Source: Balneolaceae bacterium
Lineage (GTDB): Bacteria > Bacteroidota > Rhodothermia > Balneolales > Balneolaceae
Assembly (NCBI GenBank): GCA_007693395.1
Contig: REDS01000146.1
Coordinates: forward strand, 1 to 55,472
Length of the DNA stretch: 55,472 nt
Direction of reading: 5' to 3'
In this document: piece after piece, positions 12,397 to 34,810 of the stretch
Position numbering within the stretch: the stretch's first letter is position 1
How the letters are laid out: every line of letters begins with the position of its first letter
The notes under the pieces: generated by a model
The model's database searches: none
Told to the model about the DNA's origin: nothing
Seen by the model: the letters and a program-made list of their open reading frames with translations, nothing else
Position numbers and translations under genes: made by a program

Positions 12397-13632
12397 CTAA
12401 TTCCGTGTATGTACTACCACTCCATTAATAATTACGGACTCAACGTTGGTTAGATATTCGAACGGATCGCCATCAAATAGAACAACATCAGCATCTTTAC
12501 CCATTTCAAGGGAACCCACACGCTCGTCAATTTCGAGTACCGAGGCAGCACCTAATGTGAGTGCGTGTAATGCATTTTCCATTCCAAGCCCATTGGCAGC
12601 AGCAATGGCTGCTTCAAATTTTGCAATCCGGCTTTTTGGCACATAGCCTTCAAACCCGCTTTGGAACACAACCGGAATACCGGCTTCGTGAAGTTTAGCG
12701 GCTGTTTCGAAACTGGAGTTTTTAGCTTCGCCGAAAGGACGGATCATCTTCGGGTGAATTACTACCGGTACCCCGGCCTCTTTAATTTCATCCATCACAA
12801 GATACGCTTCGGATGCACCTTCAAGTACCATTGGGAAACCAAACTCCCGTTGTATCCTCAGAGCAGTAATAATATCACTCGCTGTATGCGCCGATACAAG
12901 TGCCTTGATTTTTCCATCCAGCAGATCTGCAAGTGCTTCCATCTTCAAATCCCGGCTGTTAACATCCCCTGCTGCACGGTTTTCTGCATAGGCTTGCGCA
13001 CGTATCAGATCCTGCCGCAAAACAGCTACAGCTTTGGCTCGTGTACCAGGTGAACTGAAGTTGCTGCGAATACTTGGGCCCATTGTTACAGCAAGCATGG
13101 TTGTGGAATCCACAAGTGCTTCATCTACCGTTCTGCCTGCCGTTTTTACGATCATGGTCTGCCCGCTGATTACTGCACCCGGGCCATGCCCTGTGTGCAT
13201 TGTGGTAATCCCCTCGCTGCGCAGATACCCTACAAGAAACTCTCTGGCATTGTACGAGTCTATCGCTCTGAGTTCGGGCTGAACAGCATTGGATGTTTCC
13301 AGCTGATCCTGATCGTGCGGGTGGTTATAATAACCTGCAAGGCCTACTACCGTTCGTGCATCAATCAGGCCCGGTGTAACGATTTTAGCTTCGTGAATTT
13401 CGTAGGTATCCGGTATATCAATTCGATCGGCTGACCCTACCCGCTCAATCACACCATTGTTAATGAGAACCACACCATTTGGAATCGGGTCGCCCGCCAT
13501 GGTGTATACCATTTCGCCCTTAACGGCAATTTGCGCATCAGCAGTTATTGAGAATGTAAAGAGAACAGTAAAAGCTGTAGCAAAACAGGTTAACAATTTC
13601 GAAATCTGTACTTTATTTAATTTCTTCAACAT
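12397..13632 (-). CDS. Secreted amidohydrolase-family protein lacking metal ligands (putative pseudoenzyme)
   Basis: The 411-residue protein has a signal peptide ending near ADAQ (about residue 34) and the overall amidohydrolase fold: a first strand leading to TPGLIDA and a C-terminal GSLEMGKDADVVLFDGDP. The metal-binding residues of the family are mostly missing. The HxH after the first strand is replaced by R93 and V95 (DARTVVG). The histidine matching LQH in its neighbour is lost (LEGASEAY). The Asp-containing HSDD motif is SGF. One histidine is kept in VSAHTASD. Its start is only 2 bases past the stop of the intact paralogue, so the two are co-translated. It may be a structural partner of that enzyme; this is inference. 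Confidence 0.85.
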   Translation of the reverse strand: MLKKLNKVQISKLLTCFATAFTVLFTFSITADAQIAVKGEMVYTMAGDPIPNGVVLINNGVIERVGSADRIDIPDTYEIHEAKIVTPGLIDARTVVGLAGYYNHPHDQDQLETSNAVQPELRAIDSYNAREFLVGYLRSEGITTMHTGHGPGAVISGQTMIVKTAGRTVDEALVDSTTMLAVTMGPSIRSNFSSPGTRAKAVAVLRQDLIRAQAYAENRAAGDVNSRDLKMEALADLLDGKIKALVSAHTASDIITALRIQREFGFPMVLEGASEAYLVMDEIKEAGVPVVIHPKMIRPFGEAKNSSFETAAKLHEAGIPVVFQSGFEGYVPKSRIAKFEAAIAAANGLGMENALHALTLGAASVLEIDERVGSLEMGKDADVVLFDGDPFEYLTNVESVIINGVVVHTRN

Positions 13633-13634
13633 AA

Positions 13635-14939
13635 TTAGTGCCCTCCTGAATGAATATGCGAATTGGCTGATGCCCGGAATATTTCATATCCGCCCACAGC
13701 GTAAACACGATCTTCAGGGTTATCACGATCCCAGATTTTTTCGCCCTCAATCCAGGTTTGCTCAACTTGGGTGTACACACTGAATGGATCGCCGGAAAGA
13801 ATGATAAAATCTGCATCTTTGCCTTGTTCAAGGGAACCAACCCTGTCTTCAATATCCATCATCTTTGCGCCGGCAATGGTTAGTGCTTCAAGTGCCTTTT
13901 CGCGGCTCATACCCTCGCGTACAGCTTGTGCAGCTGAACGGATCAAAAAGCGGGAATCTACAATGGGATCATCCGAATGAAACGCAACCAAAGCACCTGC
14001 TTTTTCAAGTTCGCGACCGTTGATGTTCAGCAGGTTAATCGCTTCGAGTTTTCCTCCGGGAGAGTCGAGTGTAATGATGGATGAGCCAATTACCGATGAG
14101 TTTGCAATCTCTTCTGCCACTTTCCATCCCTCGCTGACATGCTGTAAAACCATACGGTATCCAAACTCTTCAGCCAGACGAATGGCGGTCAGGATGTCGT
14201 CATGCCTGTGGGTATGGTTATGTACAATACGTTTCCCTTCAAGAACTTCAACCAATGTTTCCATCTGAAGATCGCGGGAGGGCATTTTTTCAGGATCGCC
14301 ATTGGCGGCATCAACTTTTGCTTTGTACTCAACTGCACGCACAAACAGTTCCCGTGCAAGTGCCGCTGATTTTGCCCTTGTTCCCGGCGTGCCGTCAGCC
14401 CGAAGCGGATTGGTGCCATTTGCCATTTTCAGCCCGCCGTAGATGCCTGTGTCTTCATCAACAATAATGAGCATCTCTTCTATTGTGTTTGCAGGCTTTG
14501 TTTTTACATACACGGTTTGGCCGCTCATCAGCAAGCCGGAACCGGGCATAATATTTACAGACGTAACACCTCCGGAAGCAGCTTTTCGAAAGGTTTTGCT
14601 TCGCGGGTCGATTGTATCAAGAATGCGAACGTCTGGATGAAGCGTAGCTGAGCGGTCACCGCCATCACCTTCGCCAATGTGCGAATGGGTATCCACTATT
14701 CCCGGCATAATCACTTTACCGGAAACATCTACACGTTCCGCATGTTGAGGGATGGTAACATCAACGGCTGACCCCACCACTGTTATAACTCCGTTCTCAA
14801 TTATCATAACACCGTCTGCGTAGGTTTCACCTGTTATGGTGATAATCTCAGCGCCCACAAACGCATGTGGCCGATCCTGCGCAAACAGCATTGTTGAGGC
14901 AAGGAGCAGCATCAGCACTGTTTTGAGTACAAGTTTCAT
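13635..14939 (-). CDS. Secreted metal-dependent amidohydrolase (imidazolonepropionase-like)
   Basis: I start the gene at the ATG at 14939, which directly gives a signal peptide (MKLVLKTVLMLLLASTMLFA, then Q). An ATG at 14996 would add 19 polar residues in front of it. The 434-residue enzyme carries HSH at 85–87, further histidines at VHNHTHRHDD (240–246) and LQH (267), and an acidic HSDD (321–324), consistent with a TIM-barrel amidohydrolase with an intact metal site. The C-terminal GSLEQGKDADFIILSGDP strand is typical. Substrates in this family are cyclic amides, dipeptides and similar; none can be named here. It is the first gene of a two-gene operon with the ligand-less paralogue. Confidence 0.88.
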   Translation of the reverse strand: MKLVLKTVLMLLLASTMLFAQDRPHAFVGAEIITITGETYADGVMIIENGVITVVGSAVDVTIPQHAERVDVSGKVIMPGIVDTHSHIGEGDGGDRSATLHPDVRILDTIDPRSKTFRKAASGGVTSVNIMPGSGLLMSGQTVYVKTKPANTIEEMLIIVDEDTGIYGGLKMANGTNPLRADGTPGTRAKSAALARELFVRAVEYKAKVDAANGDPEKMPSRDLQMETLVEVLEGKRIVHNHTHRHDDILTAIRLAEEFGYRMVLQHVSEGWKVAEEIANSSVIGSSIITLDSPGGKLEAINLLNINGRELEKAGALVAFHSDDPIVDSRFLIRSAAQAVREGMSREKALEALTIAGAKMMDIEDRVGSLEQGKDADFIILSGDPFSVYTQVEQTWIEGEKIWDRDNPEDRVYAVGGYEIFRASANSHIHSGGH

Positions 14940-15018
14940 AGATTGGTTTTTTATGTTTTGGTTAGATTGGAAAATTATTGTGGACTTAGCGTTCACATGA
15001 TCAAAATAGCGATACGAT

Positions 15019-16074
15019 TTATGGGGTTACAACTGCTCTTCCCGTTATTTCGCCTTTTTTAACTTTCGCAAGAATGTCATCAGCGGCATCGAGACTGTAG
15101 GTTTGTACCGGGATACTCTTCAGCTTTTTGTTCTGAACAATCTCTATTAGCTCGCGTAATTCAGCCAGGCCACCGGTGTAAGAACCGCGAATCGTCAGAT
15201 TTTTCAGCGCTACAACCGGATTGGAAAATGTTAGTTTACCCCCAAAAAGCCCTACCATTACCATTGTTCCATTCTTCTGAAGCATATTGAACGCAGCTGT
15301 AGCCGTAGCTTCATTGTTCACAAAATCAACAATTGCAGAAGCACCTTTGCCATTTGTTGCATTCATCACAACCTCAAGTGGGTTTTCCTTTCTGGAATTA
15401 ATGGTCATAAAATCACCCAGCTGTGTAGCAACATTCAGCTTGTTGTCGTCCACATCAATTACAATAACGGCTGCTGCAGTGAGCTCTTTGACCACCTGCA
15501 TCGCCATAAGCCCGAGGCCGCCTGCACCAATAATAACCATTGTTTCATCTTTATCGAGTGGCATCATTTTTTTAAGGGCGCTATAAGCTGTAAGACCCGC
15601 ACAGGCGTAGGAACAGGCATTTTCAGGCTTAAGCCCATCAATTGCCACCAGATATTGCTCGTGAGGAATCATCACAAAATCGCTGTACCCACCATCTTTA
15701 AACACACCAAGCGAACCGGGTGAGAGGCACATGTGCATTCTGTCGGTTATGCAATATTTGCAATCATTGCAACCAATCCATGGGTAGATCAGCCGCCGAT
15801 CACCTTTTTGCGCCCCTTTTGCATCCGGTCCGGTTTCAACCACTGTACCAACCACCTCATGACCCATGGTAAGGGGCAGGTTCACACCGCGGTCGGCAAT
15901 GTACATACGCTCATCATCTCCAAGCTCGTAATAGCCTTCCCAGATATGCAGATCGGAGTGGCAAACCCCGCACGCATCCACTTTCAAAAGCACCTCATTG
16001 CCTTTCGGTTTTGGTGTTTCTGATTCAACCCATTGCAGCGGTTTACCGAATTCAGCCAGTTTTAAACTTTTCAT
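15019..16074 (-). CDS. Zinc-dependent alcohol dehydrogenase (MDR family)
   Basis: The protein has 351 residues and the classical medium-chain dehydrogenase pattern. Catalytic zinc ligands are C38 (GVCHSD), the GHE at 71–73 and a cysteine near 154–158. The four structural-zinc cysteines are C102, C105, C108 and C116. A Rossmann motif GAGGLG lies at about 183–188, followed by an acidic residue (VIDVDD) that suggests NAD+ preference. It lies 107 bases downstream of the aldehyde dehydrogenase gene on the same strand. It could therefore be the last gene of the catabolic cluster or carry its own promoter. Together the pair would oxidise an alcohol to a carboxylic acid. Confidence 0.92.
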   Translation of the reverse strand: MKSLKLAEFGKPLQWVESETPKPKGNEVLLKVDACGVCHSDLHIWEGYYELGDDERMYIADRGVNLPLTMGHEVVGTVVETGPDAKGAQKGDRRLIYPWIGCNDCKYCITDRMHMCLSPGSLGVFKDGGYSDFVMIPHEQYLVAIDGLKPENACSYACAGLTAYSALKKMMPLDKDETMVIIGAGGLGLMAMQVVKELTAAAVIVIDVDDNKLNVATQLGDFMTINSRKENPLEVVMNATNGKGASAIVDFVNNEATATAAFNMLQKNGTMVMVGLFGGKLTFSNPVVALKNLTIRGSYTGGLAELRELIEIVQNKKLKSIPVQTYSLDAADDILAKVKKGEITGRAVVTP

Positions 16075-16180: not shown

Positions 16181-17608
16181 TTAACCGTGGTTGATGACAA
16201 CTGTTTTTACAGCGGTAACATCATAAAGCGCTTCGAATCCTTTTTCACGGCCAAAACCACTCTTCTTCATTCCGCCGAAGGGAAGCTCCACACCGCCACC
16301 TGCACCATATCCGTTCACATAAACCTGCCCGGCATGTATGGCATTGGTAACCCGGTGTGCACGGCCGTTGTCTCTGGTCCAAACTGCTGCAATCAGGCCG
16401 TACTCCACATCATTCGCAATCCGGATGGCGTCTTCTTCGTCTTTGAAAGGAATCACAGCGAGAACCGGGCCAAACACCTCATTCTGTGCAATGTAGCTAT
16501 CGTTATTCACCCTGCCCATTAGTGTGGGAGGAAAGAAGTATCCGTCGCCTTCCGGCTTTTCAGCCTGAGCCAGAATGGTTGCCCCAGCCTCTTCAGCACG
16601 CTTCACAAAATCTTCTACGCGCTTCAGCTGTTTTTTGTTGATAATGGGGCCGATATCTGGGTTGGAATCTGCCGGACCTACGTTAATTTTTTTGAACCGA
16701 TCTATCAGTTTTTTCACAAATTCATCATGTATATCATCCTGAATCACCAGCCGCGAGCCTGCTGAACAGGTTTGCCCTGCATTCTGGATGATTGCATTCA
16801 CCACAACGGGCAGTGCGGCATCCAGATCAGCATCATTAAAAATAACCTGCGGCGATTTTCCGCCAAGCTCCAGTAAAACAGGACGAATGTGATTCGCAGA
16901 ATTTTTCATAATCTCAATTCCCACTTCTGGAGATCCTGTAAAAGCCATGTGATCGATTCCGGGATGGTTGGCAAGAGCAGCGCCAACTTCCTGCCCCAAT
17001 CCGGTAACGAGATTCAGTGTACCGGCCGGGAAGTCGAGCTCCGAAATCAGCTCGAAAGCGCGCACTACGGCAAGGCAGGCATCTTCAGCAGGCTTAAATA
17101 CAACAGCATTTCCTGCCGCAAGGGCAGGTGCAAGGGTGCGTCCGGTCATCTGCAAGGGATAGTTCCATGGTATAATGTGACCGGTAACCCCAAGAGGCAC
17201 CCGTTGTGTGTAAACAGTGTACCCATCTTTAAAAGGGATGGTATCCCCGTGAAATTTATCGGCCGCTCCGGCATAAAATTCAAAATATCTTGCAATCAGT
17301 GTGGCATCTGCCCTGGCCTGCTTTAGTGGTTTACCGGTATCTTTCGACTCCAGCTCAGCCAGCTCATCTGCATTTTCCAGCAAAACCTCGGCCGCCTTGT
17401 ATAGCAATCTTCCGCGATTTTCAGCAGATGTTTTTCCCCACTTACCCTCAAACGCAGCCCGTGCTGCTTTTACGGCGGCATCCACATCTTCCTTTCCGCT
17501 TCTGGCTATTTCGCCCGCTTTTGTATCGTACGAGGGGTTTATCATATCAAGTTTTCCGAGTGTACCATCCACCCACTTTCCGTTTATGAAATTTTGTGCT
17601 TTTGCCAT
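16181..17608 (-). CDS. NAD(P)+-dependent aldehyde dehydrogenase
   Basis: The 475-residue protein is a full-length ALDH superfamily member. It has the oxyanion asparagine N149 (PWNY), the general base E247 (LELGGKSP) and catalytic C281 (GQTCSAGSR). The C-terminal PFGGMKKSGFGREKG is the usual ALDH tail. It resembles betaine- or aminobutyraldehyde-type enzymes, but specificity cannot be assigned. The gene starts 11 bases after the MmgE/PrpD stop, so it belongs to the same transcript as the CoA-ester pathway genes. It may oxidise an aldehyde precursor of the acid fed into that pathway (inference). Confidence 0.94.
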   Translation of the reverse strand: MAKAQNFINGKWVDGTLGKLDMINPSYDTKAGEIARSGKEDVDAAVKAARAAFEGKWGKTSAENRGRLLYKAAEVLLENADELAELESKDTGKPLKQARADATLIARYFEFYAGAADKFHGDTIPFKDGYTVYTQRVPLGVTGHIIPWNYPLQMTGRTLAPALAAGNAVVFKPAEDACLAVVRAFELISELDFPAGTLNLVTGLGQEVGAALANHPGIDHMAFTGSPEVGIEIMKNSANHIRPVLLELGGKSPQVIFNDADLDAALPVVVNAIIQNAGQTCSAGSRLVIQDDIHDEFVKKLIDRFKKINVGPADSNPDIGPIINKKQLKRVEDFVKRAEEAGATILAQAEKPEGDGYFFPPTLMGRVNNDSYIAQNEVFGPVLAVIPFKDEEDAIRIANDVEYGLIAAVWTRDNGRAHRVTNAIHAGQVYVNGYGAGGGVELPFGGMKKSGFGREKGFEALYDVTAVKTVVINHG

Positions 17609-17619
17609 GATTCTGTGAT

Positions 17620-18939
17620 TTATTTTATGATTAATTCCGGAACAAGTGTGCTGCTGTCAGCTTCTAAAATCCATTTTGAGAGTTGGTGAGATGTATGCTT
17701 CTTTGCGCCTGCATAGGTCATCAAACCTGCAAATTTTGTCATCATCTCTTCATTGCTGAGGGGGTTTTCAGGGTCACCTTTGGCTGATTTTATTTCCGAT
17801 TCAAATTTCATCCCGCCGGTACTTACCGTAACCTTTGCTCCCCAGTTTTTGGGATATGCCTCATTGAATTTTTCATCGGTTCGCACTGCTGTTTTTTCAA
17901 TCAAGCCGGTTGATGCATTTCCAATAAGTTCACGCCCCTCAAAGTGAGGCAACATGGGAAATCCCTTCAGCAACGCCAGGCATACACAGTACTGGATACT
18001 GAATTTTGCGGCAAACGTAGTTTCAGGCGATGGGTTGTCGGTAACCCGAAGTGCTGTTTCGTACGTGTTTATTTCAATATTTTCAATCTCTTTCGTATCT
18101 GAAACCGCCAAATTTAACCTCTCTCTGATATCGAGTGCGGCATCAATGGCAGGGTGGGTGTGTCTGCAGGATGGGTACGGCTTGATGGAGGTTTCATTCA
18201 ATTTCCAGCCGGCAGACTCTGCCGTAACAGCTTCGGGTTTTGGGTTGAGGCATAGGCCTGCGAAAAAGCCTTTTTTGCCCTCAAATATTTTTTCAGAGCC
18301 GGTAAAGTTTTCAGCTGCCAGCAGTGCAGCTTTAAGCCCGGCTTCAGCAGCATGGCCGGCGTGCAGGTGTTTGCTCATGGCAGCATCTTCATTAAACTGC
18401 CAAAGCCCGGCAGCCTGTGTACCTGCATTTCCCATAGCCCAGACAAACTGGTCTTCGTTCAGGCCAAGAAGAGCAGATGCCGTAGCCGCCGCACCATAAA
18501 CACCAGCAGTAGCTGTATTATGAAAAATCTTGTAGTGCTCCTCTCCAAGTGCCTCACCAACCCTGCACATTGTCTCGTAGCCGTGCAGTGATGCAACAAG
18601 GCAATCATGAAAATTCTTCTTTAGAAAACGTGAAAGATGCCACGCAACCGGAAAAACCACGCAGGCAGGGTGTGTAACTGACCCTCGGTGCAGATCGTCC
18701 GTCTCTGTGATGTGCGATTGTGCCGCCATCAAAAAAACCTGCTGAAGTAAACCGTCGCCTGCCCATTTAGAGTGGTATCTGCCAAGAATAGTGCCTTGCT
18801 GTGCAACCGTTCCTGCAGCAAAACAACCTGCCCAATCAAGCATAAAGAGCCGCACATCCTGCAGATGGCCCTCTTCAACAGGTTTTCTGTTTAATAGGTG
18901 ATAAAGCTGCCTGCTTATTGATTCCACGAGTAGATCCAC
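17620..18939 (-). CDS. MmgE/PrpD family protein (cis-aconitate decarboxylase / 2-methylcitrate dehydratase superfamily)
   Basis: The 439-residue protein matches the MmgE/PrpD fold over its length: an N-terminal DWAGCFAAGTVA, a helical HGYETMCRVGEAL segment, and KPYPSCRHTHPAIDAAL near residues 260–275, the conserved Cys/His region. The family includes 2-methylcitrate dehydratase and the itaconate-forming cis-aconitate decarboxylase. The start is a GTG at 18939 that overlaps the end of the MaoC gene by 25 bases; a second in-frame GTG at 18927 would reduce this to 13. Its place among CoA-transferase, hydratase and lyase genes parallels the MmgE/PrpD gene in the Pseudomonas aeruginosa itaconate cluster. 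The exact reaction is unknown. Confidence 0.88.
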   Translation of the reverse strand: MDLLVESISRQLYHLLNRKPVEEGHLQDVRLFMLDWAGCFAAGTVAQQGTILGRYHSKWAGDGLLQQVFLMAAQSHITETDDLHRGSVTHPACVVFPVAWHLSRFLKKNFHDCLVASLHGYETMCRVGEALGEEHYKIFHNTATAGVYGAAATASALLGLNEDQFVWAMGNAGTQAAGLWQFNEDAAMSKHLHAGHAAEAGLKAALLAAENFTGSEKIFEGKKGFFAGLCLNPKPEAVTAESAGWKLNETSIKPYPSCRHTHPAIDAALDIRERLNLAVSDTKEIENIEINTYETALRVTDNPSPETTFAAKFSIQYCVCLALLKGFPMLPHFEGRELIGNASTGLIEKTAVRTDEKFNEAYPKNWGAKVTVSTGGMKFESEIKSAKGDPENPLSNEEMMTKFAGLMTYAGAKKHTSHQLSKWILEADSSTLVPELIIK

Positions 18940-19766
18940 TTAACCGTTGCCATCATGGCAATTTTATTGTCGGGCCCAAGCACCCTCATTTCCACTTTTG
19001 TATTGTCCACATCTTTACTGGTGATGGTAAGCTCTTCACCCAGATAAATCGGCCCAACTGCCTTATAACTTACCTCTTCGATAACTTTACCATCCGATTT
19101 TGATTTAAACGCATTCAGGAGAAGCGTTAACAGCAGCGGTCCGTGCACCACAATATTGGGATATCCCTCTTCTTCTGTGGTGTAGGGAAAATCGTAATGA
19201 ATTTTATGGCCGTTAAACGTTAGTGCAGAGTAACGAAAAAGATCTGTTGACGTAAGCACACGGCTCTTTTTCCAATCGAAATCTATATCCATCGGTTTCG
19301 TACGGATTGGGTGCGCACCCTCTTCTGATGCTTCCCGGTAAACAATCTGCTGCTCTTCATCAATTGCCACAGCACCATATGCACTTATCTGATGGCGAAC
19401 CGTTACAAAACAGAGTTTACCACTCGAACCCTCTTTCTCTTCAATTTTTACAATTGTGGATTTCTTATCCGCCGGGGCACCGGTTTTCAGCGGTTTCTTA
19501 AATTGAATGGTACCGCCTGCCCACATACGTTTGGGCAGATCAACAGGAGGAAGAAAGCCCCCTTTTTTTGCATGGCCATCGGCTGCAAGATCAGATTGCC
19601 TGCCCATTGGTGTAAAATACACCCAATGTGCACAGGGGGGCAGCACAGTGCCAGCCTGCACCTCTCCGGGGTCCCTGTCGAGCATTGCTTCAAACCTCTG
19701 CAGCTGTTCGGGTGCCATTGAGTCGTTCTGATCTTTCGATTTTCCAATCCACTCTTCGTAACTCAT
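18915..19766 (-). CDS. MaoC-type acyl-CoA hydratase (itaconyl-CoA / mesaconyl-C4-CoA hydratase-like)
   Basis: The 283-residue protein has the double-hotdog layout of the HTD2/mesaconyl-C4-CoA hydratase group. The N-terminal half contains LPPCAHWVYFTP. The C-terminal half contains FNGHKIHYDFPYTTEEEGYP and VVHGPLLLTLLL, the hydratase signature with its HYD and catalytic His region. Members hydrate itaconyl-CoA or mesaconyl-CoA to citramalyl-CoA. Its ATG overlaps the TGA of the CoA-transferase gene (ATGA, 19763–19766), a sign of translational coupling. With the transferase and the CitE-type lyase it makes a complete three-step route from the free acid to acetyl-CoA and pyruvate. Confidence 0.86.
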   Translation of the reverse strand: MSYEEWIGKSKDQNDSMAPEQLQRFEAMLDRDPGEVQAGTVLPPCAHWVYFTPMGRQSDLAADGHAKKGGFLPPVDLPKRMWAGGTIQFKKPLKTGAPADKKSTIVKIEEKEGSSGKLCFVTVRHQISAYGAVAIDEEQQIVYREASEEGAHPIRTKPMDIDFDWKKSRVLTSTDLFRYSALTFNGHKIHYDFPYTTEEEGYPNIVVHGPLLLTLLLNAFKSKSDGKVIEEVSYKAVGPIYLGEELTITSKDVDNTKVEMRVLGPDNKIAMMATVKWIYSWNQ

Positions 19767-20893
19767 AATCCTAACTCCTTTTTAATTTTTTCGTTGTGCT
19801 CGCCAAGAGCCGGTATCGGGCCGAATAGAGTTTCATATCCTGCAAAAATTGCGGGACGATCAGCCATTTGCACATTGCCTGCTTCACTTTCAACTTCAAT
19901 AAGCCGCAGTTGTGGATGACCCACAAACTCAGCCATGCTGTTGAGGTTTGCATACGCAATCTTCTGCTCTTTCAGCCTGCTCAATACATCAGTATAACTC
20001 AATTCACTGAACTTCCGTTGAATCTGCCTGTTCAGTTCATCCCTGTTCGCCACTCTGAGAGAATTTCGACTGAACCGTTCGTCTTCCGGGTTGATAGAGC
20101 CATCCATCACGCCATCGCAAAACCGTACCCATTCACGCTCATTCTGGATGCCAATCATCACCTCACGCCCACCTGATGTTTTAAATGGGCCATACGGAGC
20201 AATGGCAGCATGATGAACTCCCGTTCTCGCCGGGGCTTTACCGCCATATTTTTGATGCAGCCAGGGTACCATCATCCAGTCGGCCATGGAATCGAACATG
20301 GACAATTTTATACCGGTACCTTTGCCTGTTTTCTCTTTCTGAATGATCGCCTCCAGGATAGCCGAATAAGCGTGAATGCCGGTGCTGATGTCTGCAATAG
20401 AGATTCCCGTTTTTGCCCGGGTTTCGCCATCTCCAGTCACATCGATGAGTCCGGTTTCTGCCTGAACAAGATTGTCATACGCTTTCATTTTAGCATACTC
20501 TCCCTCTTCGCCATATCCGCTTATATCACATGTAATAAGGTGTGGATGCTCGTCCCTCAGTTTTTCGCTGTGTAGATTTAGCCTTTTCAGTGCACCGGGA
20601 GCCAGATTCTGTATAAACACATCCGCTTTGGCGATCAGTGCCAGAAAAAGTTTTCTACCCTCATCCGATTTAATATCTGCAGTTACCGATTCCTTTCCGC
20701 GGTTCAGCCATGAGAAATAAGTACTTTGGCCTTTTACAACTTCATCGTACTGGCGGGCAAAATCACCGGTGCCTTCACGCTCTATTTTGATAACCCTGGC
20801 ACCTGCATCTGCCAGCCTGCAACTCGCGAACGGAGCCGAAACAGCCTGTTCAATGCTAACTATGGTGATATTTTCGAGCGGTTTGAATTTCAT
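19763..20893 (-). CDS. CaiB/BaiF family CoA-transferase
   Basis: Family III CoA-transferases move CoA between carboxylic acids. This one has the N-terminal VSAPFASCRLADAGARVIKIE, the NRGKESVTADI segment and the catalytic aspartate in SIADISTG at about D168. I start at the ATG at 20893, 10 bases past the acyl-CoA dehydrogenase stop. An earlier in-frame ATG at 20932 would add 13 residues and overlap that gene. The product is 376 residues, a little shorter than formyl-CoA transferase. By context it would activate the substrate acid (itaconate, or possibly mesaconate or methylsuccinate) using succinyl-CoA. The substrate is inference from neighbours. Confidence 0.92.
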   Translation of the reverse strand: MKFKPLENITIVSIEQAVSAPFASCRLADAGARVIKIEREGTGDFARQYDEVVKGQSTYFSWLNRGKESVTADIKSDEGRKLFLALIAKADVFIQNLAPGALKRLNLHSEKLRDEHPHLITCDISGYGEEGEYAKMKAYDNLVQAETGLIDVTGDGETRAKTGISIADISTGIHAYSAILEAIIQKEKTGKGTGIKLSMFDSMADWMMVPWLHQKYGGKAPARTGVHHAAIAPYGPFKTSGGREVMIGIQNEREWVRFCDGVMDGSINPEDERFSRNSLRVANRDELNRQIQRKFSELSYTDVLSRLKEQKIAYANLNSMAEFVGHPQLRLIEVESEAGNVQMADRPAIFAGYETLFGPIPALGEHNEKIKKELGL

Positions 20894-20903
20894 GGAATGA
20901 AGT

Positions 20904-22067
20904 TTAGTACGATCTCGGAAGGCCAAGCACATGTTCCGATAGATACGCCAGTATGAGATTTTTTGATATCGGTGCTACCTGGTAGAGCCTTGTTTCACGG
21001 AATTTTCTTTCTATGGCAAAGTTAGCATCGAACCCTCTGCCCCCATAGGTTTGCATTGCAACATTGGCTGCTTCCCAGGATGCTTCGGATGCAAGCAGCA
21101 GCGATGTATTTGCCTCTTCACCGCAATTTTCACCCGCTTCAAACACAGCACACCCTTTCTTCACCATCATTTCTGCTGCCAGCATAGATGCGTAAGCACG
21201 TGCAATCGGGAATTGAATCCCCTGATTCTGGCCAATCGGGCGCTCAAACAGCTCGCGCTGGTTAGCCCACTTTACTGAACGGTTGATGAACCATTTCGCA
21301 TCACCAACACACTCCGAGGCGATCAACAGGCGTTCGGCATTCATTCCATCCAGAATATAGCGGAACCCTCTGCCAAGCTCTCCAACTAGGTTTTCATCAG
21401 GGATGAACAGATCGTTAATGTAAATCTCCGTGAGGGAATGGTTCATCATGGTGCGGATGGGGCGGATATCGAGTGATTTTCCTTTCTCTTTTCGCATATC
21501 CACAAGAAATGTTGACAGGCCATCTACTTTTTTCTGCACTTCGTCTATAGGCGTAGTGCGTGCAAGAAGCAGCATCAAGTCAGAGTGTTGCCCCCGGCCG
21601 ATGTAGAATTTATGACCGTTTACCAGGTACCCGCCATCCACTTTTTTGGCAAAGGTGCGGAGTTTGGTTGTATCGCTGCCGGTATGCTTTTCGGTTACTC
21701 CAAACACCTGTAGGCGAAGCTCGCCTGAAGCAATTTTTGGCAAAAACCGCTGTTTTTGTTCTTCATTTCCGTGCTTCAACAGTGTGCCCATGATATACAT
21801 CTGTGCATGGCATACACCACCGTTACATCCGTTAGCCTGTATCTCTTCCATCACAACAGTCGCCTCAGTAAGAGACCTGCCCTCGCCTCCATATTGCTTC
21901 GGAATTAAAACCGACAGCAAACCGCTTCGGCTCAGTTCGTCCACAAATTCTGATGGATATCTTCTGTTCTCATCGAGATCCTGCCAGTATTCGTCCGGGT
22001 ATTTTGCTGTGATATCGCGAACACGCTGACGGAGCTCTTCGTGGTTTTCGTTTAAATCAATCTTCAT
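20904..22067 (-). CDS. Acyl-CoA dehydrogenase
   Basis: The 387-residue protein (ATG at 22067 chosen; an upstream ATG at 22106 would overlap the lyase gene) has the acyl-CoA dehydrogenase order. An N-terminal helical domain contains SGLLSVLIPKQYGGEG. The middle beta domain has VFGVTEKHTGSDTTKLRTFAKK. The C-terminal four-helix domain has YGGRGFDANFAIERKFRETRLYQVAP. These enzymes use FAD to introduce an alpha,beta double bond in acyl-CoA. In this operon it could oxidise methylsuccinyl-CoA to an unsaturated C5 dicarboxyl-CoA that the MaoC protein then hydrates. That role is inferred only from position. Confidence 0.93.
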   Translation of the reverse strand: MKIDLNENHEELRQRVRDITAKYPDEYWQDLDENRRYPSEFVDELSRSGLLSVLIPKQYGGEGRSLTEATVVMEEIQANGCNGGVCHAQMYIMGTLLKHGNEEQKQRFLPKIASGELRLQVFGVTEKHTGSDTTKLRTFAKKVDGGYLVNGHKFYIGRGQHSDLMLLLARTTPIDEVQKKVDGLSTFLVDMRKEKGKSLDIRPIRTMMNHSLTEIYINDLFIPDENLVGELGRGFRYILDGMNAERLLIASECVGDAKWFINRSVKWANQRELFERPIGQNQGIQFPIARAYASMLAAEMMVKKGCAVFEAGENCGEEANTSLLLASEASWEAANVAMQTYGGRGFDANFAIERKFRETRLYQVAPISKNLILAYLSEHVLGLPRSY

Positions 22068-22077
22068 TCTTGTAATT

Positions 22078-22941
22078 TTATTGTTGATAATATTTTGCAA
22101 GGGCAAGCACCCTTTTGGCCTGATTAATTACGGGTGGTTCAAGTACTGTTCCTCTCCACGCAACGGCATGCCCACCCGCTTCATCAAATACCCGAACCAT
22201 TTCTGCTGCATCTTCAACTTCCTTCGGGGTTGGTGTAAACGTGCTATTGATTGAGGTTACCTGTTTGGGGTGAATAGCTGCTTTTGCTGTAAATCCAAAA
22301 CGTTTGGCATTGGCAGTTTCAGTCTGCAAACCTGCTTCATCATCGAGGCCAAACCACGGCATATCTATCAGAGAAAGGTTCAACCCGCCGGCACTTCGAA
22401 TAAACCCGGACCGATATGCTGAAAGTACATCCCACTCTTTTGTGCAACCAAGTTCCATTGCGAGATCGTACCCTCCAAAAATGGTACCGGTAACGAGATT
22501 TGTACTTAAGATAGCCCGGCAGTTTTCAAGGGCAAGCGCTGTTTCGATAAGCGGAATAAGCTGTGTTTTCCGGTCGAACATGATAAGCTGTTTAGATAGC
22601 CTTTCCAGCAATCCTGCTTCTGTAAGTTTTGGAATTACCAGCCCTCCAACCGGCTTACTGAGCTCTCTAATCATTTCAAGATCACTTTTCCCCAATTCCG
22701 AATCGACCGAATTGATACGAAGAACTACAAGCGGGTGATTTTGCGTGCCATGCTCAAGAAATGTAAACACTAAAGACCGTGCCTCTGTTTTTTCATTTTG
22801 AGGCACACTGTCTTCAAGGTCAATACAGAGAACATCAGCACCGGAGGCTTCGGCTTTTTCCCACTTATCCAATTTGCCGGCAGGTACAAACAGCAAACTT
22901 CGTACAGCCGTAAGATTTGCTATGTTATTAGGTTCCGCCAT
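22078..22941 (-). CDS. HpcH/HpaI (CitE-like) CoA-ester lyase, likely citramalyl-CoA or malyl-CoA lyase
   Basis: The 287-residue protein starts with RSLLFVPAGKLDKWEKA, has the acidic metal/substrate motif CIDLEDSVP (about residues 39–47), and ends with the diagnostic AAIHPKQVTSINSTFTP. The order and length match the CitE-like lyases that split citramalyl-CoA or malyl-CoA by retro-aldol (Mg2+-dependent). It lies 15 bases downstream of the gene for the 179-residue protein and 10 bases upstream of the acyl-CoA dehydrogenase start. In an itaconate route it would release acetyl-CoA and pyruvate from citramalyl-CoA. Confidence 0.9.
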   Translation of the reverse strand: MAEPNNIANLTAVRSLLFVPAGKLDKWEKAEASGADVLCIDLEDSVPQNEKTEARSLVFTFLEHGTQNHPLVVLRINSVDSELGKSDLEMIRELSKPVGGLVIPKLTEAGLLERLSKQLIMFDRKTQLIPLIETALALENCRAILSTNLVTGTIFGGYDLAMELGCTKEWDVLSAYRSGFIRSAGGLNLSLIDMPWFGLDDEAGLQTETANAKRFGFTAKAAIHPKQVTSINSTFTPTPKEVEDAAEMVRVFDEAGGHAVAWRGTVLEPPVINQAKRVLALAKYYQQ

Positions 22942-22956
22942 ATATAAATGTATTGT

Positions 22957-23496
22957 TTAATTTTGAATGTATGATAAAACTTCAGGCCTAAGTTGCAGTT
23001 TGGCAGCTGCCTCGAAGTGCTCATCAATGTAGATCCACTCGTTCGGGGGCCTGTTTTTTAGCTCAACCACAAATGTTTTCAGATAAAAGAGCTTGCAGGC
23101 TTGTGCCTTAACCTCATAATCTTTCAGCAGTTTATTTCTGCTAAGCACAATACCCTTAATCAAATCAATCGCCTCCTCTTTTGCGCCATTTTCATCAATT
23201 TTACTGGTGAGTATTTTTCCATCGTCAAGTGTTTGAATAGCCGAAGCAGGATAAGAGGAGACCCGCTCCTTCACGGGGCGGAGGCAATCAACAGCTACCA
23301 GATCGTTGTACACCATTCCTTTTTTCAGATAGGTATCCATTTTTACCGAAACAGATACATAATACCAGGGGTACCAAATGGTTATCTGCCCGGACTTTTC
23401 AAACCGCTTCAAAAACCTTCGGAATGGATACGCACTCTTTATGCCAAATTGAATCTGTTTATTGGTTAGTTCGGCAAGTACTGCTGTTTGAGCCAT
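22957..23496 (-). CDS. Unknown 179-residue protein in the CoA-ester catabolic operon
   Basis: No family is recognised. The protein has no signal peptide or membrane segment. It looks like a globular alpha/beta protein with an aromatic stretch (ITIWYPWYYVSVSV, about 38–51), a charged middle region and a C-terminal NEWIYIDEHFEAAAKLQLRP. It lies 35 bases downstream of the symporter stop and 15 bases upstream of the lyase start, so it is almost certainly co-transcribed with them. It could be an accessory enzyme or a regulator acting with the transporter; nothing in the sequence decides this. Confidence 0.75.
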   Translation of the reverse strand: MAQTAVLAELTNKQIQFGIKSAYPFRRFLKRFEKSGQITIWYPWYYVSVSVKMDTYLKKGMVYNDLVAVDCLRPVKERVSSYPASAIQTLDDGKILTSKIDENGAKEEAIDLIKGIVLSRNKLLKDYEVKAQACKLFYLKTFVVELKNRPPNEWIYIDEHFEAAAKLQLRPEVLSYIQN

Positions 23497-23531
23497 TTTT
23501 GCAGGAGAATTTACTCCAAATTGGATGAATC

Positions 23532-25037
23532 TTATTTTCTTACCGGAGAGAAGATTTCGTTCAGTTTCTCTTCGGGCATAGGCTTTGTAAAGAGACTAAC
23601 AACCACCATCACAGCTGATGCAAGCAGCACACATACTCCTGCCGCGCCAAATGGATTTTGCCAGCCAACTACAAGCCACATTGCTGCATAGCTAATCACA
23701 CCAACAAGAAACGATGATATTGCACCGGCTTTGGTAGATCTTCGCCATATTGAACCGATTACCAGCGGGCCCGCAGCGCCACTCATGATACCGCCAACTC
23801 CAATCCAGAGTAGTACGGCAAGGAAGTCCGGCGGATTCCATGCAAGCCACATCGCTGCAAAAACGGTTATAACTGTGGCAACACGTGATATGTTGAGGGC
23901 AGTTTTTTCAATCTCCTTTTGAGATTTATTGGGATGAATTTTTTTCGAAAAGGTTTTTCGGTAAAGGTCATTACTAAAGATTACCGCTATGGAAACGAAT
24001 AGCCCGTCAGCCGTGGATATGATTGCAGAGAGAATGGCGATTCCCAAAAAGCCTGCAAGTGCCGGGGGAAAAAGTTCAACAAAAAGTGCCGGTATGGCTG
24101 CATCGGGTCGAAGCTCCGGCCCGATTACTGCCCTTGCATGAAGGCCGCCCAAAACTGCAAAGCCAAGAATGGAGCCAATCGGGATGGCCAATATCAGAAA
24201 CTTTCGGAGCTGTGCCGAATCTTTCAGGGCGAATGCTTTATTGCCAATGTGGGGATTCATGGCAAATGGCAGATGAGCAATAAACATCAGAATCACAAGC
24301 CATAAACTGCCAAAAATTGGATCGCCGGGCGAAAAGTAATTATCCCATGTTAAGGAAGCATCCTGAGCGCCAATTGCCTCATTTATACCGGCAGCACCAC
24401 CGCTTTCGGTTCCGGTTCCAAGAAAGAAGAGTACGGTAATTAGTACTGCAATAAGCAGCATCAAGCCACCCTGAAATGCATCGGTTAAAATATCGGCATG
24501 AGAGCCCCCTATAGTAATATAGATTCCGATCACGATTACCGTTACAATAACACCCAGGCGGTAATCAACGCCAAGCATCACTTCAAAGGCAGTGGCTGCA
24601 GCAACTACCTGAGCCGTTACATAGTAGATAAGCAGCAATGAGAGCAGTGCAAACCCAACCCTCAAAAAATCACTATCGAAACGCTGCCCCAAAAACTCCG
24701 GGAGTGAGTTAGATCGAAAAGCATCGCCCGCACGCTTGATAAGCTGAACGGATAGGATAAGGCCAATGTAAATTCCTATCGGGTAAATGGCCGGATACCA
24801 AAGTGCTGGGAAACCTTTATCATAAGCAAGCCCCGGAATGCCCATAAACGTGGAGCCGCTGGCAATGGTAGAGGCTAGTGCAAGGATGAGGATATACGGG
24901 CCGTAAGATTTACGGGCTACTGCAAAGTCTTCATCTGTTTTTGTTTTGGTCATGGCATAAAAACCAATTCCAAGCGTACCAACAATAAAAAAGACTAACC
25001 AGAACCAGGCCCATGTGCCAATTGTTACTTCTTCCAT
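23532..25037 (-). CDS. Sodium:solute symporter (SSS family)
   Basis: The 501-residue protein has about 13 hydrophobic segments and SSS-family features. These include the first-helix region TLGIGFYAMTKTKTDEDFAVA, GPYILILALASTIASGSTFMGIPGLAYDKG (sodium/substrate site helix 1), and ITIGGSHADILTDAFQG, the family's conserved mid-protein signature region. It would import an organic anion with Na+ into the cytoplasm. Its place at the head of the CoA-transferase/hydratase/lyase operon suggests it brings in the acid that the operon degrades. The tiny upstream frame at 25045–25134 ends 7 bases before its ATG. Confidence 0.93.
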   Translation of the reverse strand: MEEVTIGTWAWFWLVFFIVGTLGIGFYAMTKTKTDEDFAVARKSYGPYILILALASTIASGSTFMGIPGLAYDKGFPALWYPAIYPIGIYIGLILSVQLIKRAGDAFRSNSLPEFLGQRFDSDFLRVGFALLSLLLIYYVTAQVVAAATAFEVMLGVDYRLGVIVTVIVIGIYITIGGSHADILTDAFQGGLMLLIAVLITVLFFLGTGTESGGAAGINEAIGAQDASLTWDNYFSPGDPIFGSLWLVILMFIAHLPFAMNPHIGNKAFALKDSAQLRKFLILAIPIGSILGFAVLGGLHARAVIGPELRPDAAIPALFVELFPPALAGFLGIAILSAIISTADGLFVSIAVIFSNDLYRKTFSKKIHPNKSQKEIEKTALNISRVATVITVFAAMWLAWNPPDFLAVLLWIGVGGIMSGAAGPLVIGSIWRRSTKAGAISSFLVGVISYAAMWLVVGWQNPFGAAGVCVLLASAVMVVVSLFTKPMPEEKLNEIFSPVRK

Positions 25038-25044
25038 AGTTCTA

Positions 25045-25134
25045 TCAGGTCCAGTCTTCCTTTTTGCTTACATAGTAAATTCCACCCACCCAGTAGATGA
25101 GAATAATGATTCCGAGAAGGAGGAGGAGATTCAT
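25045..25134 (-). CDS. 29-residue single-helix membrane peptide, symporter accessory-like
   Basis: An ATG at 25134 opens a 29-codon frame ending with TGA at 25045. The peptide starts MNLLLLLGIIILIYWVGGIY and ends in a charged tail (VSKKEDWT), so it is one transmembrane helix with a short charged end. It is preceded by a purine-poor leader but is spaced only 7 bases from the symporter start. Similar tiny genes sit directly before SSS-family symporters in other bacteria and are annotated as symporter small accessory proteins. I assign it by position and shape, without sequence comparison. Confidence 0.7.
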   Translation of the reverse strand: MNLLLLLGIIILIYWVGGIYYVSKKEDWT

Positions 25135-25176: not shown

Positions 25177-25220
25177 ATTAAGCATCGGGCCACATAAAGC
25201 ACATTCACCCGATGCTTAAT
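25177..25220. repeat. 13-bp perfect inverted repeat with 18-nt spacer
   Basis: Arms at 25177–25189 and 25208–25220 (ATTAAGCATCGGG / CCCGATGCTTAAT) are perfect complements. The repeat lies between the stop of the MBL gene (25246) and the start of the 29-residue peptide (25134), both minus strand. It is 26 bases past the MBL stop. On the minus strand no T-run follows it, so it is either an unusual terminator or an operator for the symporter operon. Confidence 0.6.
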
Positions 25221-25245: not shown

Positions 25246-26103
25246 TTAATCGTAATATTCAGGCAGAAGGCGTCTTGTCTGGAATTGCTCCATGCTATGG
25301 CCGAGCCAGATTTCACCGTTCTCACGATCGCGTATCAGTTTCATCCGCTCGATGGCTTCCATTGCTTCCTGCACATTCCATACAATACCGGGGATGGTTC
25401 CCTGGAGGTTTTCAGGCATATAGGCGGCATCAGCGGCAAGAATTACAGTTCCGGTGTTTGGAAGACGTACAATAAGCGACTGATGGCCTTGTGTATGTCC
25501 TTTGGTATCAATCAGCTCAATGGCGCCATCTCCGAACAGATCCATGTCTTCAGTTAACTCAATAAAATTGAAGTTCCTGGTTTCCATATAATCATCCAAC
25601 ACATAAGCTGCGCGCTGAAACTGCTCCGGCCACCATGCGTTTTTAAGCTCCGCCTTACGAACAATATGCGTGGCATTGGGAAACATAGCTATGTTGCCGG
25701 CATGATCGAGGTGGAAATGGGAGTGAATTACGTATTTAACATCCGATACTGATTTACCGATTTGTTGCAGCCTTTCGTCAATTCCCTGATCGCGGGTCAT
25801 AGTAGGGATAAATGCCTGAGACACCGGTCCCCAGTACTCTGCACCATTATCGGGCACAACATTTACACTCATTCCCGTGTCAAAAATTACAAGGCCTCTT
25901 GGGTGATCAATGATATACATGGGAACAGGGATATCAATCATGGTGCCAACGTTCGTCATAGCTGTAAGCCAGCCCTGATCAAGTTCAAGCTCACCACTGG
26001 TAGTTACGTACATTTTAATGTCACTATTTTGCGCATGGGCAGCAGAGAAAAGCGACATAATCAGAAAAAGAGAAATAGTGATAGAAAATATTTTTTTGAG
26101 CAT
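25246..26103 (-). CDS. Secreted MBL-fold hydrolase, N-acyl-homoserine-lactonase-like
   Basis: The 285-residue protein has a signal peptide (cleavage near AHAQ, about residue 24) and a complete metallo-beta-lactamase dinuclear zinc site. The site consists of HSHFHLDHAG (H129, H131, D133, H134), a histidine in GHTQGH (203–207), D225 in LAADAAY and H269 in LGHSME. The spacing and LVIFDTGMS segment match the lactonase-type subfamily. Enzymes there open acyl-homoserine lactones or other lactones. With an export signal it would act in the periplasm or outside. Its physiological substrate is uncertain. It sits 124 bases after the FG-GAP gene and may be on that transcript. Confidence 0.88.
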   Translation of the reverse strand: MLKKIFSITISLFLIMSLFSAAHAQNSDIKMYVTTSGELELDQGWLTAMTNVGTMIDIPVPMYIIDHPRGLVIFDTGMSVNVVPDNGAEYWGPVSQAFIPTMTRDQGIDERLQQIGKSVSDVKYVIHSHFHLDHAGNIAMFPNATHIVRKAELKNAWWPEQFQRAAYVLDDYMETRNFNFIELTEDMDLFGDGAIELIDTKGHTQGHQSLIVRLPNTGTVILAADAAYMPENLQGTIPGIVWNVQEAMEAIERMKLIRDRENGEIWLGHSMEQFQTRRLLPEYYD

Positions 26104-26227: not shown

Positions 26228-29200
26228 TTAACGAACCGGTGGCTGATACAAGTAAGGAATAACCGGTTCACCATATCTGCCAAGAAGAAAAAGAGAGCCT
26301 AACGGGCTCGGCACCAAATCTATACTGCGAACATCACCAACGCCATAAAAGCCGGTAAGCCGGGGCGGTACTACTTCAAATTCAAACTCACCTTCTGCTT
26401 TTAGCATTATGCCCTGATCAGCCATGGGACCAATTTCCGGCCGGGTACCAAAATTATTTCCGGCTGCCATAATATCGGGAAGGCCGTTGGCAAAAAAGTC
26501 ACCAATAAACAAATCGTAGATTGGTGCTGCCTGCGCTCTTATTGGGAGTGCTTTTCTTGTGAAGGTGCCATCACCGCTGTTCATAAAAACAGAAGATTCA
26601 AAGGTATCCACACGGAATTGCTCCGTAGTTCTCCTGGCCAATGAGATAATATCATCTGCGTTTGCAGCTGCCCACGATGCGTAAGTGGGAAATTGATTAC
26701 GAAATGATGGCAGCTGCTGGAGAAACGTATCTCTTTCGGGAAATGGCACGCGCCGCCCCTCTGTTACTTTGGTGATTAGCGGATCATGTAAACCATTGTT
26801 ATTGAAATCGCCGAGATAGAGAATTACCGGGTTTTCCGGTGATGTTTGCAGTTGTGTATTTAACCCTCTGTTACCTGCAACAATATCAGGCAGCCCATTG
26901 CCATTCAGGTCGGCAACATCAATTACATTCCACCAGCCTGCACTCTCTTTTAAGCCGAACTGATCGGTTCTGTCTCTGAACACACCATCCACTTTTTTAA
27001 AAATACGTATCGGCATCCACTCGCCGGCAATGATAAGTTCTGCCTCTCCGTCACTATCTATATCAGCCCAAACAGCTGATGTAACCAGGCCGGGGCGCAT
27101 TAAATCGGGGCCAAATTGCGCTGTTACGTCCTCAAATCGGCCATTATTATTTCTGAGCAGATAGCTTCTGGGGGATGCAGGATATTGCCCTGTAAGCACA
27201 CGGCCACCCACAAAAAGATCAGGGCTGCCATTGTTTTCAATATCAATAAGAATAACGGTGCCACCGCTGGTGTGCATTTGCGGGAGAGCATCGGGCAGGT
27301 AACGGAAGTTTCCAAACCCATCATTCATGTAGAACCTGTCCTGGTAAGCTTCACCATTCATCTGATCGTAATTTCCGCCGCTTACCACATAGAGATCCTG
27401 AACTCCATTGCCGGTTGCATCAAAAAAGAGTGCGGCTGTATCTTCGTAATTGGCATGTCGTTCAAAATCGGGTACGGCCACTCTGAAAAATGTACCATCG
27501 GGTTGTTGCAGAAATAGTGCCGCCGGCTGGCCCTGGCCACCTCCCATAAAAATATCCGGAAGGCCGTCGCCGTTCACATCCGCCGAGGTTACAAATGCGC
27601 CGAGGTTTGAAAGTGTATGCGGCATCAACGGGCTAAAAATTCTGTCACGAAAGAAGCTTTGTTCATGTGAAAAATCTAAACCCAATGCTGCGTCATCAAG
27701 CAGCACGAAAAGCGGTTCAGGCTGGGCAGCTGCCGCAGTTTGCCCGGCAACCGCACTCCTCTGGTTTACAATAAGGGTTTGGTTAGCTGCAACCTGCTCA
27801 ATTGTTTCTATTGTTTGATCGGGCCATATAACCTCAACATTTACTTTTTCTGCACTACCCAGGCCAAAGTGCAAAACCGGATCTACAGTTGACTGAAAGC
27901 CACGGGTTGTAAATGCCTCCTGAAAGAATATTGAGCCATCATCTGTTGTTAGTTTTACTTTTGAGCCGATACCAAATGTATTTGCTCCGGAACCCTGAAG
28001 GCGCACCTTTAAATAGTTGTTGGCATTTTGCAAGTGTGCATTATTTTGAAAAATAAAGGGCGTTTCGTTGATATTGTTCACAATAATATCCAGCGCACCA
28101 TTATTGTTTAGATCAACATAAGCAGCACCGCCCGAAACGCTTGGGCGTTTGAGTCCCCACTTTTCTGTGGCATCGCCAAACGTTAGATCGCCTCTATTCT
28201 GAAATGCTACATTGCTCATTTCCACCTTCTCCATTTGTGTAACCAGCCGGTACAAAATGGAAGGGTTATCGGGCAGGTCTTCATCCGGGTATTCTCTCCA
28301 GAGAGTATTGTTAAGGTAATCAAGGTCAGTGTAGAAGCGTGGAAAGCCGTTTGTGATATAAATATCTTTATGGCCGTTGTTATCGAAATCTGCAAGAAGT
28401 GTAGCCCAGCTCCAGTCTGACTTGTGAACCCCTGCAAGCTGGCCAATCTCTGTAAAAACGCCATCACCATTGTTTAGCTGAAGCGTATTACGCATATTTT
28501 TTCGGTGATAGCCTGCAGCTACATGCTGATCGTAATTGGCATAATCGGGTGTTTTAAAAACTTTTCTGCGCTCGTATTGGGGTGGCAGCATATCTGCCAC
28601 AAATATATCGGGAAGGCCATTGTTGGTGATATCGGCAATATCAGATCCCATTGAGAAGTATGAGGTTACATCCGTTCTTGCAAGAATCTCATCACGAAAA
28701 GTGCCATCTCCCTGGTTAATGTACATATAGTCGCGCTCCATAAAATCGTTGGCAACATAGATATCCGGCAGGCCATTGCCTGTGAGGTCTGATACTGTAG
28801 CACTCAGGCCAAACCCTATTGGATTTTGCATAATGCCGGCCTCCCGGCTTACATCCGTGAAGGTACCGTCACCGTTGTTTCTGTAGAGTTTGTCACCAGC
28901 AAATTCGTCAATCTCATTCCTTATTGTTCGTATGTCGAACCCGCGAAATGCACGTGTATTGTAGTTCACGATAAATAGATCGAGCAGGCCATTGCCATTA
29001 TAATCAAAAAAAACAGGCTGTGTGCAGTAACCGGGATCATCCAGGCCAAATTGTGCTGCCTGTTCTGTAAAAACTGGTATGCCTGTATCAGGGTTAACCC
29101 CATCATTGATAAAGAGTTTATTTCGGCGCTCTTCTATCTCTACTTTTCCGGCTTTACACACGTAAATATCGAGCAGGCCATTGCCGTTGATGTCAACCAT

Positions 29201-29536: not shown

Positions 29537-29643
29537 AGAAATTTTAACGTAAGATCCTGTGAAAAAATATTCGTTTTGCTAATCAACAGAAAATTTGTGC
29601 GGCGTTATTGGCGTCGATTTTTTTTGATGATTTATTCCGAAAT

Positions 29644-29673
29644 AAAAAACCCGGCACTATGTCCGGGTTTTTT
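29644..29673 (-). terminator. Intrinsic terminator of the second SusC/SusD operon
   Basis: An 11-bp perfect stem (AAAAAACCCGG at 29644–29654 and its complement at 29663–29673) with an 8-nt loop lies 28 bases past the SusD stop codon. A-run and T-run flank it, so it could work in both directions. Confidence 0.85.
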
Positions 29674-29701
29674 CTTAATCACTCACGTAAAGATATTCGC
29701 G

Positions 29702-31255: not shown

Positions 31256-31273
31256 AGTGATATAGCCTTTAGA

Positions 31274-34754: not shown

Positions 34755-34810
34755 CTCTTTTTAAGTGTTGATCTATATAACTATATCTGCTGTAATAGCT
34801 TAATCGTTAT

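Follow-up and report, generated by a model that had tools for sequence, protein, structure and literature searches.

Among known systems, the one closest to the gene cluster described here is found in saprophytic Pseudomonadota: a five-gene itaconate/methylsuccinate cluster (PMC12290011), in which ich, mcd, msi, ict and ccl stand together, as in PA0878-PA0886 of Pseudomonas aeruginosa and its C. necator counterpart. The environmental source of the methylsuccinate was unclear until the reduction of itaconate by gut bacteria was shown (Gonner et al., PMC12290011). For lactones the known model is BlcABC, in which the lactone is converted to a hydroxyacid and on to a semialdehyde (PMC5924552). Here we describe a cluster with counterparts of both systems on the minus strand of contig REDS01000146.1 (assembly GCA_007693395.1), from a Balneolaceae bacterium described as a soda-lake organism; the window is positions 1 to 55,472 of this contig. 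On balance we favor reading the cluster as a module for catabolism of a branched C5 lactone, of the C5 diacids downstream of it, or of both. What the sequence itself shows is the identity of the genes, the Msi active site, the synteny and the co-occurrence; the substrates, the cargo and assembly of the symporter and the sequence of front-end reactions are inferred. Its core is a member-like version of the known pathway, and the unusual part is the set of additions, a lactonase, alcohol and aldehyde dehydrogenases (ADH and ALDH) and a symporter trio, which are counted as part of the system because they are conserved.

The core enzymes (Ict, Ich, Mcd, Msi and Ccl) very probably form a C5-branched dicarboxylate pathway ending in pyruvate and acetyl-CoA, and homologues of all five lie together in one run. 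The reference clusters were of the five-gene type (Aminobacter, Variovorax and Shinella plasmids) and the four-gene type (Chelatococcus, Acinetobacter and Roseomonas), with the Variovorax and Aminobacter clusters and the solved P. aeruginosa Ich and PA0883 standing in for the PAO1 and C. necator chromosomal sequences; Ict, Ich and the acyl-CoA dehydrogenase (ACAD) were compared with them by pairwise identity, and the tree was that of the lyase. Identities to the reference clusters are 54-63% for ACAD, 46-51% for Ict, 37-44% for Ich, 33-46% for MmgE and 29-35% for Ccl, and against the Aminobacter and Variovorax five-gene clusters in particular they are 63 and 57% (ACAD), 46 and 48% (Ict), 43 and 40% (Ich) and 46 and 39% (MmgE). 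Ich finds its best solved match in the itaconyl-CoA hydratase of P. aeruginosa (8khg, 1.7e-59), with which it has the motifs GGFLPP-D and FRYSA-TFNGH-IHYD in common. We propose that Msi would interconvert S- and R-methylsuccinate, Ict would move CoA from succinyl-CoA, Mcd would oxidise methylsuccinyl-CoA to mesaconyl-C4-CoA, Ich would hydrate this (or itaconyl-CoA) to (S)-citramalyl-CoA, and Ccl would split the latter into acetyl-CoA and pyruvate; a gene for the electron-transfer flavoprotein alpha subunit is present in the genome. A preliminary description of the window had proposed a pathway like that of P. aeruginosa to pyruvate and acetyl-CoA, which these comparisons support (P. aeruginosa/C. 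necator type), and had placed its emphasis on itaconate, which needs adjusting: the presence of Mcd and an Msi-type MmgE protein makes methylsuccinate at least as fitting a label for the cluster as itaconate, a point already made for the known cluster (PMC12290011).

The isomerase assignment draws on the active-site residues of the PA0881 Msi (His88, Glu91, His102, Tyr148, His152, Lys202 and Lys266; PMC12290011), all seven of which are matched in the window MmgE/PrpD protein as H76, E79, H90, Y136, H140, K190 and K253, with a constant numbering offset of 12 (13 for the last residue). Its combination of HxxE with Yx3H recurs in Aminobacter, Variovorax and Chelatococcus and is not found in IDS epimerase, B. 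subtilis IRG1, cis-aconitate decarboxylase, Shinella or SAR116. Identification of the protein as a cis-aconitate decarboxylase or an IDS epimerase was rejected, as these have HxxD rather than HxxE, the decarboxylase is without the Tyr, and the epimerase has Yx4H. In SAR116 (L023 9968-15908) we also note a single run of Ich, MmgE, Ict, a lyase, a second MaoC protein, whose match is of the mesaconyl-CoA hydratase type, and another CaiB protein.

The lyase departs from the Pseudomonas pattern. Its score with the RipC family NF038242 (213 bits) is under the curated cut-off of 375, yet this is by far its best family; its best PDB match is Yersinia pestis RipC (3qll), with 163 bits for RipC vs 87 bits for PA0883, and in the tree it joins Y. 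pestis RipC on a branch that is not strong (support 88/89), while PA0883 and most of the plasmid lyases fall elsewhere. The scores and tree thus show that it is not of the PA0883 type, and these together with the identities indicate a transferase and hydratase of the Pseudomonas kind and a lyase of the Yersinia kind. The comparison with Pseudomonas and Yersinia enzymes that the preliminary description had suggested therefore bears out a Pseudomonas-type set for the CoA-transferase and for Ich, which is of the P. aeruginosa type, but not for the lyase. Ccl and U179, a 179-residue protein discussed below (adjacent at 22078-23496, and at 13224-14638 of L039, from another family), are far less conserved between families (38% and 33%) than ACAD (80%) and SSS (82%), and have perhaps evolved fast or been replaced together.

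The nine genes at 16181-25134 were found exactly where the preliminary description had placed them, tightly packed and all on the minus strand, with intergenic gaps of -29 to +35 bases and a single copy of the cluster in the genome. Homologues of ACAD and Ict have a conserved Met14 as the probable start, at about 22067 and 20893, and the apparent overlaps at these two genes arise because the longest open reading frame (ORF) was taken; both vanish if translation starts at Met14. Gene order was compared with stretches read from eight further genus members and from three genomes in another family of the same order, and the arrangement is present in all, at 31-98% protein identity, so the run is not due to chance. 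As far as contigs reach, the order is metallo-beta-lactamase (MBL) fold lactonase, 29-residue peptide, sodium:solute symporter (SSS), U179, Ccl, ACAD, Ict, Ich, MmgE, ALDH and ADH. The conserved unit thus runs from the lactonase (25246-26103) through the Zn-ADH (15019-16074), wider than the 'complete itaconate operon' first proposed, whose core genes are all there but whose boundaries leave out the probable first steps. In searches over the order, U179 and SSS occur in the same 13 of 129 genomes; MmgE at a minimum of 50% identity is in 12 of these (the exception, G326, has the cluster split over contigs), as is the lactonase (the exception being G360, with a contig ending just past SSS). Four genus genomes (G018, G019, G020 and G281) have Ict and Ich only or Ich only, and none of them has the U179, SSS, MBL or MmgE marker. 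An Ict-Ich pair also stands alone at L036 9885-11854, L037 10109-12078 and L038 8756-10727, where the vicinity lacks homologues of the lyase, ACAD and isomerase; in L036 and L038 the pair adjoins a gene for a universal stress protein.

The lactonase, ADH and ALDH together make a Blc-like front-end gene set within this conserved order. The lactonase keeps the AiiA/AttM motifs HxHxDH, GHTxGH and DxxY (as DAAY) and the C-terminal His, and the motifs and a signal peptide are present in every homologue read; its gene has the same position in all full clusters. ADH and ALDH stay in the unit in the other family at 64-72% identity, and the best solved relatives of the Zn-ADH are annotated as NAD-dependent alcohol dehydrogenases. 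Among nine plasmid relatives of the ADH that were examined, a hydrolase lies nearby in six, an ALDH in seven and a flavoprotein like Baeyer-Villiger monooxygenases (BVMO) in five. On two Roseobacter plasmids, of Pseudosulfitobacter (L113 916-10951) and Actibacterium (L115 278-11026), a short-chain dehydrogenase/reductase (SDR), a BVMO-like monooxygenase, a hydrolase, an ADH and a succinate-semialdehyde dehydrogenase (SSADH) are joined to homologues of Ict, Mcd, Ich and a lyase; their Mcd proteins are 77-87% identical to those of Variovorax or Shinella, and the Pseudosulfitobacter Ict is short (251 residues). These clusters probably represent an undescribed pathway from a cyclic ketone or lactone to methylsuccinate.

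By simple chemistry, opening and oxidation of alpha- or beta-methyl-gamma-butyrolactone would yield methylsuccinate, and of alpha-methylene-gamma-butyrolactone itaconate. The secreted lactonase would open such a methyl- or methylene-gamma-butyrolactone in the periplasm, and the Zn-ADH and ALDH would oxidise the CH2OH of the hydroxyacid to methylsuccinate (or, from the methylene form, itaconate). The lactonase motifs and signal peptide, the plasmid ADH neighborhoods and the BlcABC precedent together suggest this order of steps, from lactone through hydroxyacid and semialdehyde to methylsuccinate or itaconate, to which we give about an even chance.

Between these two parts lies the proposed importer, a three-part sodium symporter composed of the 29-residue peptide, SSS and U179. 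SSS scores 165.5 bits with PF00474 (gathering cut-off 22.8; 2.4e-48) and is 80-83% identical in the other family, and the peptide is conserved in all clusters read, ending in KEDWT. Neither the peptide nor U179 matched a Pfam or NCBIfam family, U179 had no hit in the plasmid search, and its predicted structure (mean pLDDT 71, nine sequences) had no PDB match with E of 0.001 or below. The nearest plasmid relatives of SSS are haloarchaeal, at 41-43% identity, followed by a drop to 32%. SSS is preceded by an ORF of about 43-46 codons, starting MNV(L/I)..L....(Y)F......K.ED, and followed by a protein of 189-204 residues in Halalkalicoccus, Halomarina and Natrinema; with a U179 profile the three follower proteins tested rank first of 16 (25.7, 15.2 and 11.7 bits). 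The Halomarina trio (L122 1-9347, a plasmid) lies beside MmgE, ACAD, a RipB/Ich-like MaoC hydratase (177 bits against a cut-off of 340) and a protein of the succinate CoA-transferase family, with no CitE-type lyase and no lactonase gene annotated nearby, and the Halalkalicoccus trio has as neighbors a CoA-transferase and an ALDH with 50% identity to that of the window.

The trio would import the hydroxyacid. Both a lactone-derived hydroxyacid and the C5 diacid itself fit as cargo, and since the SSS carboxylate carriers named in a review (PMC7918813) take monocarboxylates, we regard the hydroxyacid as an equally or more plausible cargo. The preliminary description was thus right to see a dedicated symporter and a genuinely extra 179-residue protein as additions to the known cluster, and its choice of the diacid as cargo finds no support in the reviewed carriers.

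Several observations weigh against the favored reading. ADH and ALDH score well below every named-family cut-off, which makes their substrates putative. Identity of the lyase to its counterparts in Pseudomonadota clusters is only 29-35%. The resemblance of the haloarchaeal proteins to U179 is weak, suggestive rather than strong, and the Roseobacter parallel is functional and not orthologous, because those clusters have an alpha/beta hydrolase and a different class of ALDH. No literature was found on bacterial breakdown of methyl- or methylene-butyrolactone. A strong hairpin (25178-25219) stands between the lactonase and peptide genes in seven of seven genomes, with a T-run in three, and because it separates lactonase from symporter the lactonase gene may be a separate transcript or unit. 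The hairpin would also suit a model in which itaconate or methylsuccinate is taken up and degraded as such, the symporter carrying the diacid and the lactonase, ADH and ALDH acting in detoxification or scavenging. The core genes suffice for growth of Pseudomonas on methylsuccinate and itaconate (PMC9875883, PMC12290011), the Halomarina trio has its hydratase and CoA-transferase neighbors without an annotated lactonase gene, and the lactonase could perhaps be the counterpart of PA0880, a 2-hydroxyparaconate lactonase in the Pseudomonas cluster. However, PA0880 has 127 residues, half the length of the MBL protein, belongs to another family and is annotated as a ring-cleaving dioxygenase; a diacid route has no use for the ADH and ALDH that the unit keeps even across families, and the reviewed SSS carriers point to monocarboxylates. 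We consider this model unlikely, if still a serious one.

Degradation of another substituted succinate by the same chemistry, for example a larger alkylsuccinate or a compound formed when cyclic ketones or terpenoids are broken down, is quite improbable in our view. Larger substrates modified at C3 could fit the isomerase site (PMC12290011), ADH relatives adjoin cyclic-ketone-type monooxygenases and the lyase has diverged and evolves fast (38% across families vs 80% for ACAD), but ACAD and MmgE are close to C5 enzymes, the Msi active site is fully kept, and Ich and the lyase are of known C5 types. That the lactonase is a quorum-quenching N-acyl-homoserine lactone (AHL) lactonase lying next to the cluster by chance is very improbable, even though it scores best with the AttM and AiiA families of AHL lactonases and retains AiiA-type residues: its scores fall short of every AHL-lactonase cut-off (for AttM NF045700, 218 vs 390 bits), it is exported, and among 245 genomes of the class a lactonase of that similarity is found only where the cluster is, adjoining it wherever the contig allows. 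Returning to the lactone pathway, we tentatively put forward, at somewhat less than an even chance, its fullest form: an undescribed route from a branched C5 lactone to methylsuccinate, fed by an undescribed three-component sodium symporter that Balneolales and haloarchaea share and that is linked in them to two versions of an itaconate-type pathway that are not homologous.

Table 1. Features of the cluster in the window, from high to low position
Feature	Position	Strand	Basis
MBL-fold lactonase of the AttM/BlcC-AiiA type, secreted (signal peptide), 285 aa	25246..26103	-	NF045700 AttM 218 bits; motifs; position
Hairpin between lactonase and 29-aa peptide genes, probable terminator/attenuator	25178..25219	-	Hairpin in 7/7 genomes
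29-aa single-pass membrane peptide, proposed symporter subunit	25045..25134	-	MNLLLLLGIIILIYWVGGIYYVSKKEDWT; conserved in all clusters, recognisable in haloarchaea
SSS sodium:solute symporter, 501 aa	23532..25037	-	PF00474 2.4e-48
U179, 179-aa protein, always directly after symporter gene	22957..23496	-	Matches no Pfam/NCBIfam family; co-occurs with SSS
(S)-citramalyl-CoA lyase candidate (Ccl), RipC-like, CitE-type	22078..22941	-	NF038242 RipC 213 bits; PDB 3qll; tree
Methylsuccinyl-CoA dehydrogenase candidate (Mcd), ACAD; start probably 22067	20904..22106	-	54-63% identity to cluster ACADs
Candidate itaconate/methylsuccinate CoA-transferase (Ict) of the CaiB family; start probably 20893	19763..20932	-	PF02515; 46-51% identity to cluster Ict homologues
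Itaconyl-CoA/mesaconyl-C4-CoA hydratase (Ich), MaoC	18915..19766	-	Best PDB 8khg 1.7e-59; common motifs
Candidate (S)-(R)-methylsuccinate isomerase (Msi) of the MmgE/PrpD family	17620..18939	-	Seven PA0881 residues matched
NAD(P)-dependent aldehyde dehydrogenase, proposed for the step from semialdehyde to dicarboxylate	16181..17608	-	PF00171; GQTC and LELGGKS motifs; conserved position
Zn-dependent medium-chain alcohol dehydrogenase, proposed omega-hydroxyacid dehydrogenase	15019..16074	-	Conserved position; plasmid homologues lie near hydrolase and ALDH genes

The same strand carries, upstream of the cluster (26228-39885), genes for an ASPIC/UnbV FG-GAP protein and two SusC/SusD pairs, of which one pair with ASPIC recurs in G007 (L109) and the other pair in G003 (L011), and neither in the other family; the pairs are possible outer-membrane uptake systems for the substrate of the cluster or for another. 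Directly after ADH (12397-14996) lie two exported imidazolonepropionase/prolidase-like amidohydrolases, kept in several genus members (L010, L014 and L018). Both groups were dropped as parts of the cluster, being present in some genus members only and absent from the other family. No regulator was identified next to the cluster of the window; in the other family a GntR-family regulator gene lies upstream of the lactonase (L039 17632-18522). Scans of the region for sigma-70 promoters and terminators gave results no richer than shuffled sequence.

The cluster extends the methylsuccinate gene set to Balneolaceae. By predicting methylsuccinate as an intermediate of lactone oxidation, it offers an alternative source of this compound and a testable reason for the mcd and msi genes; the predicted substrate is a branched five-carbon lactone, a compound not yet named by anyone, and the trio is a new candidate uptake system for C5-type acids.

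Compared with BlcABC (AttKLM), the gamma-butyrolactone operon of Agrobacterium, the window similarly combines an MBL lactonase with alcohol and aldehyde oxidation to a succinate-type acid, but its lactonase is exported, its ADH is of the Zn type whereas Rhizobium attM adjoins an iron-containing ADH, and it continues into the C5 CoA pathway. The Pseudosulfitobacter and Actibacterium clusters likewise unite an ADH (44% identical), an ALDH, a hydrolase and Ict, Mcd, Ich and lyase, although theirs add the BVMO-like enzyme and SDR, have an SSADH-type ALDH and an alpha/beta hydrolase rather than an MBL protein, and no SSS trio was seen in them. With the RipABC itaconate cluster of Y. pestis the window has in common the lyase, nearest to RipC, but its CoA-transferase is of the CaiB and not the RipA type, its hydratase is the 280-residue P. 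aeruginosa type and not RipB, and it also has Mcd and Msi. The P. aeruginosa and C. necator cluster agrees in having all five enzyme homologues in one run (PMC12290011, PMC9875883, PMC12599236), the Msi active-site residues, an Ich of the same type and a dedicated importer next door, which is the IctPQM TRAP system there and the SSS trio here. The window differs from it in gene order, in its RipC-like lyase, in an MBL lactonase in place of PA0880, in the extra ADH and ALDH, and in its occurrence in Balneolaceae, whereas 96.2% of the methylsuccinate isomerases found belong to Pseudomonadota.

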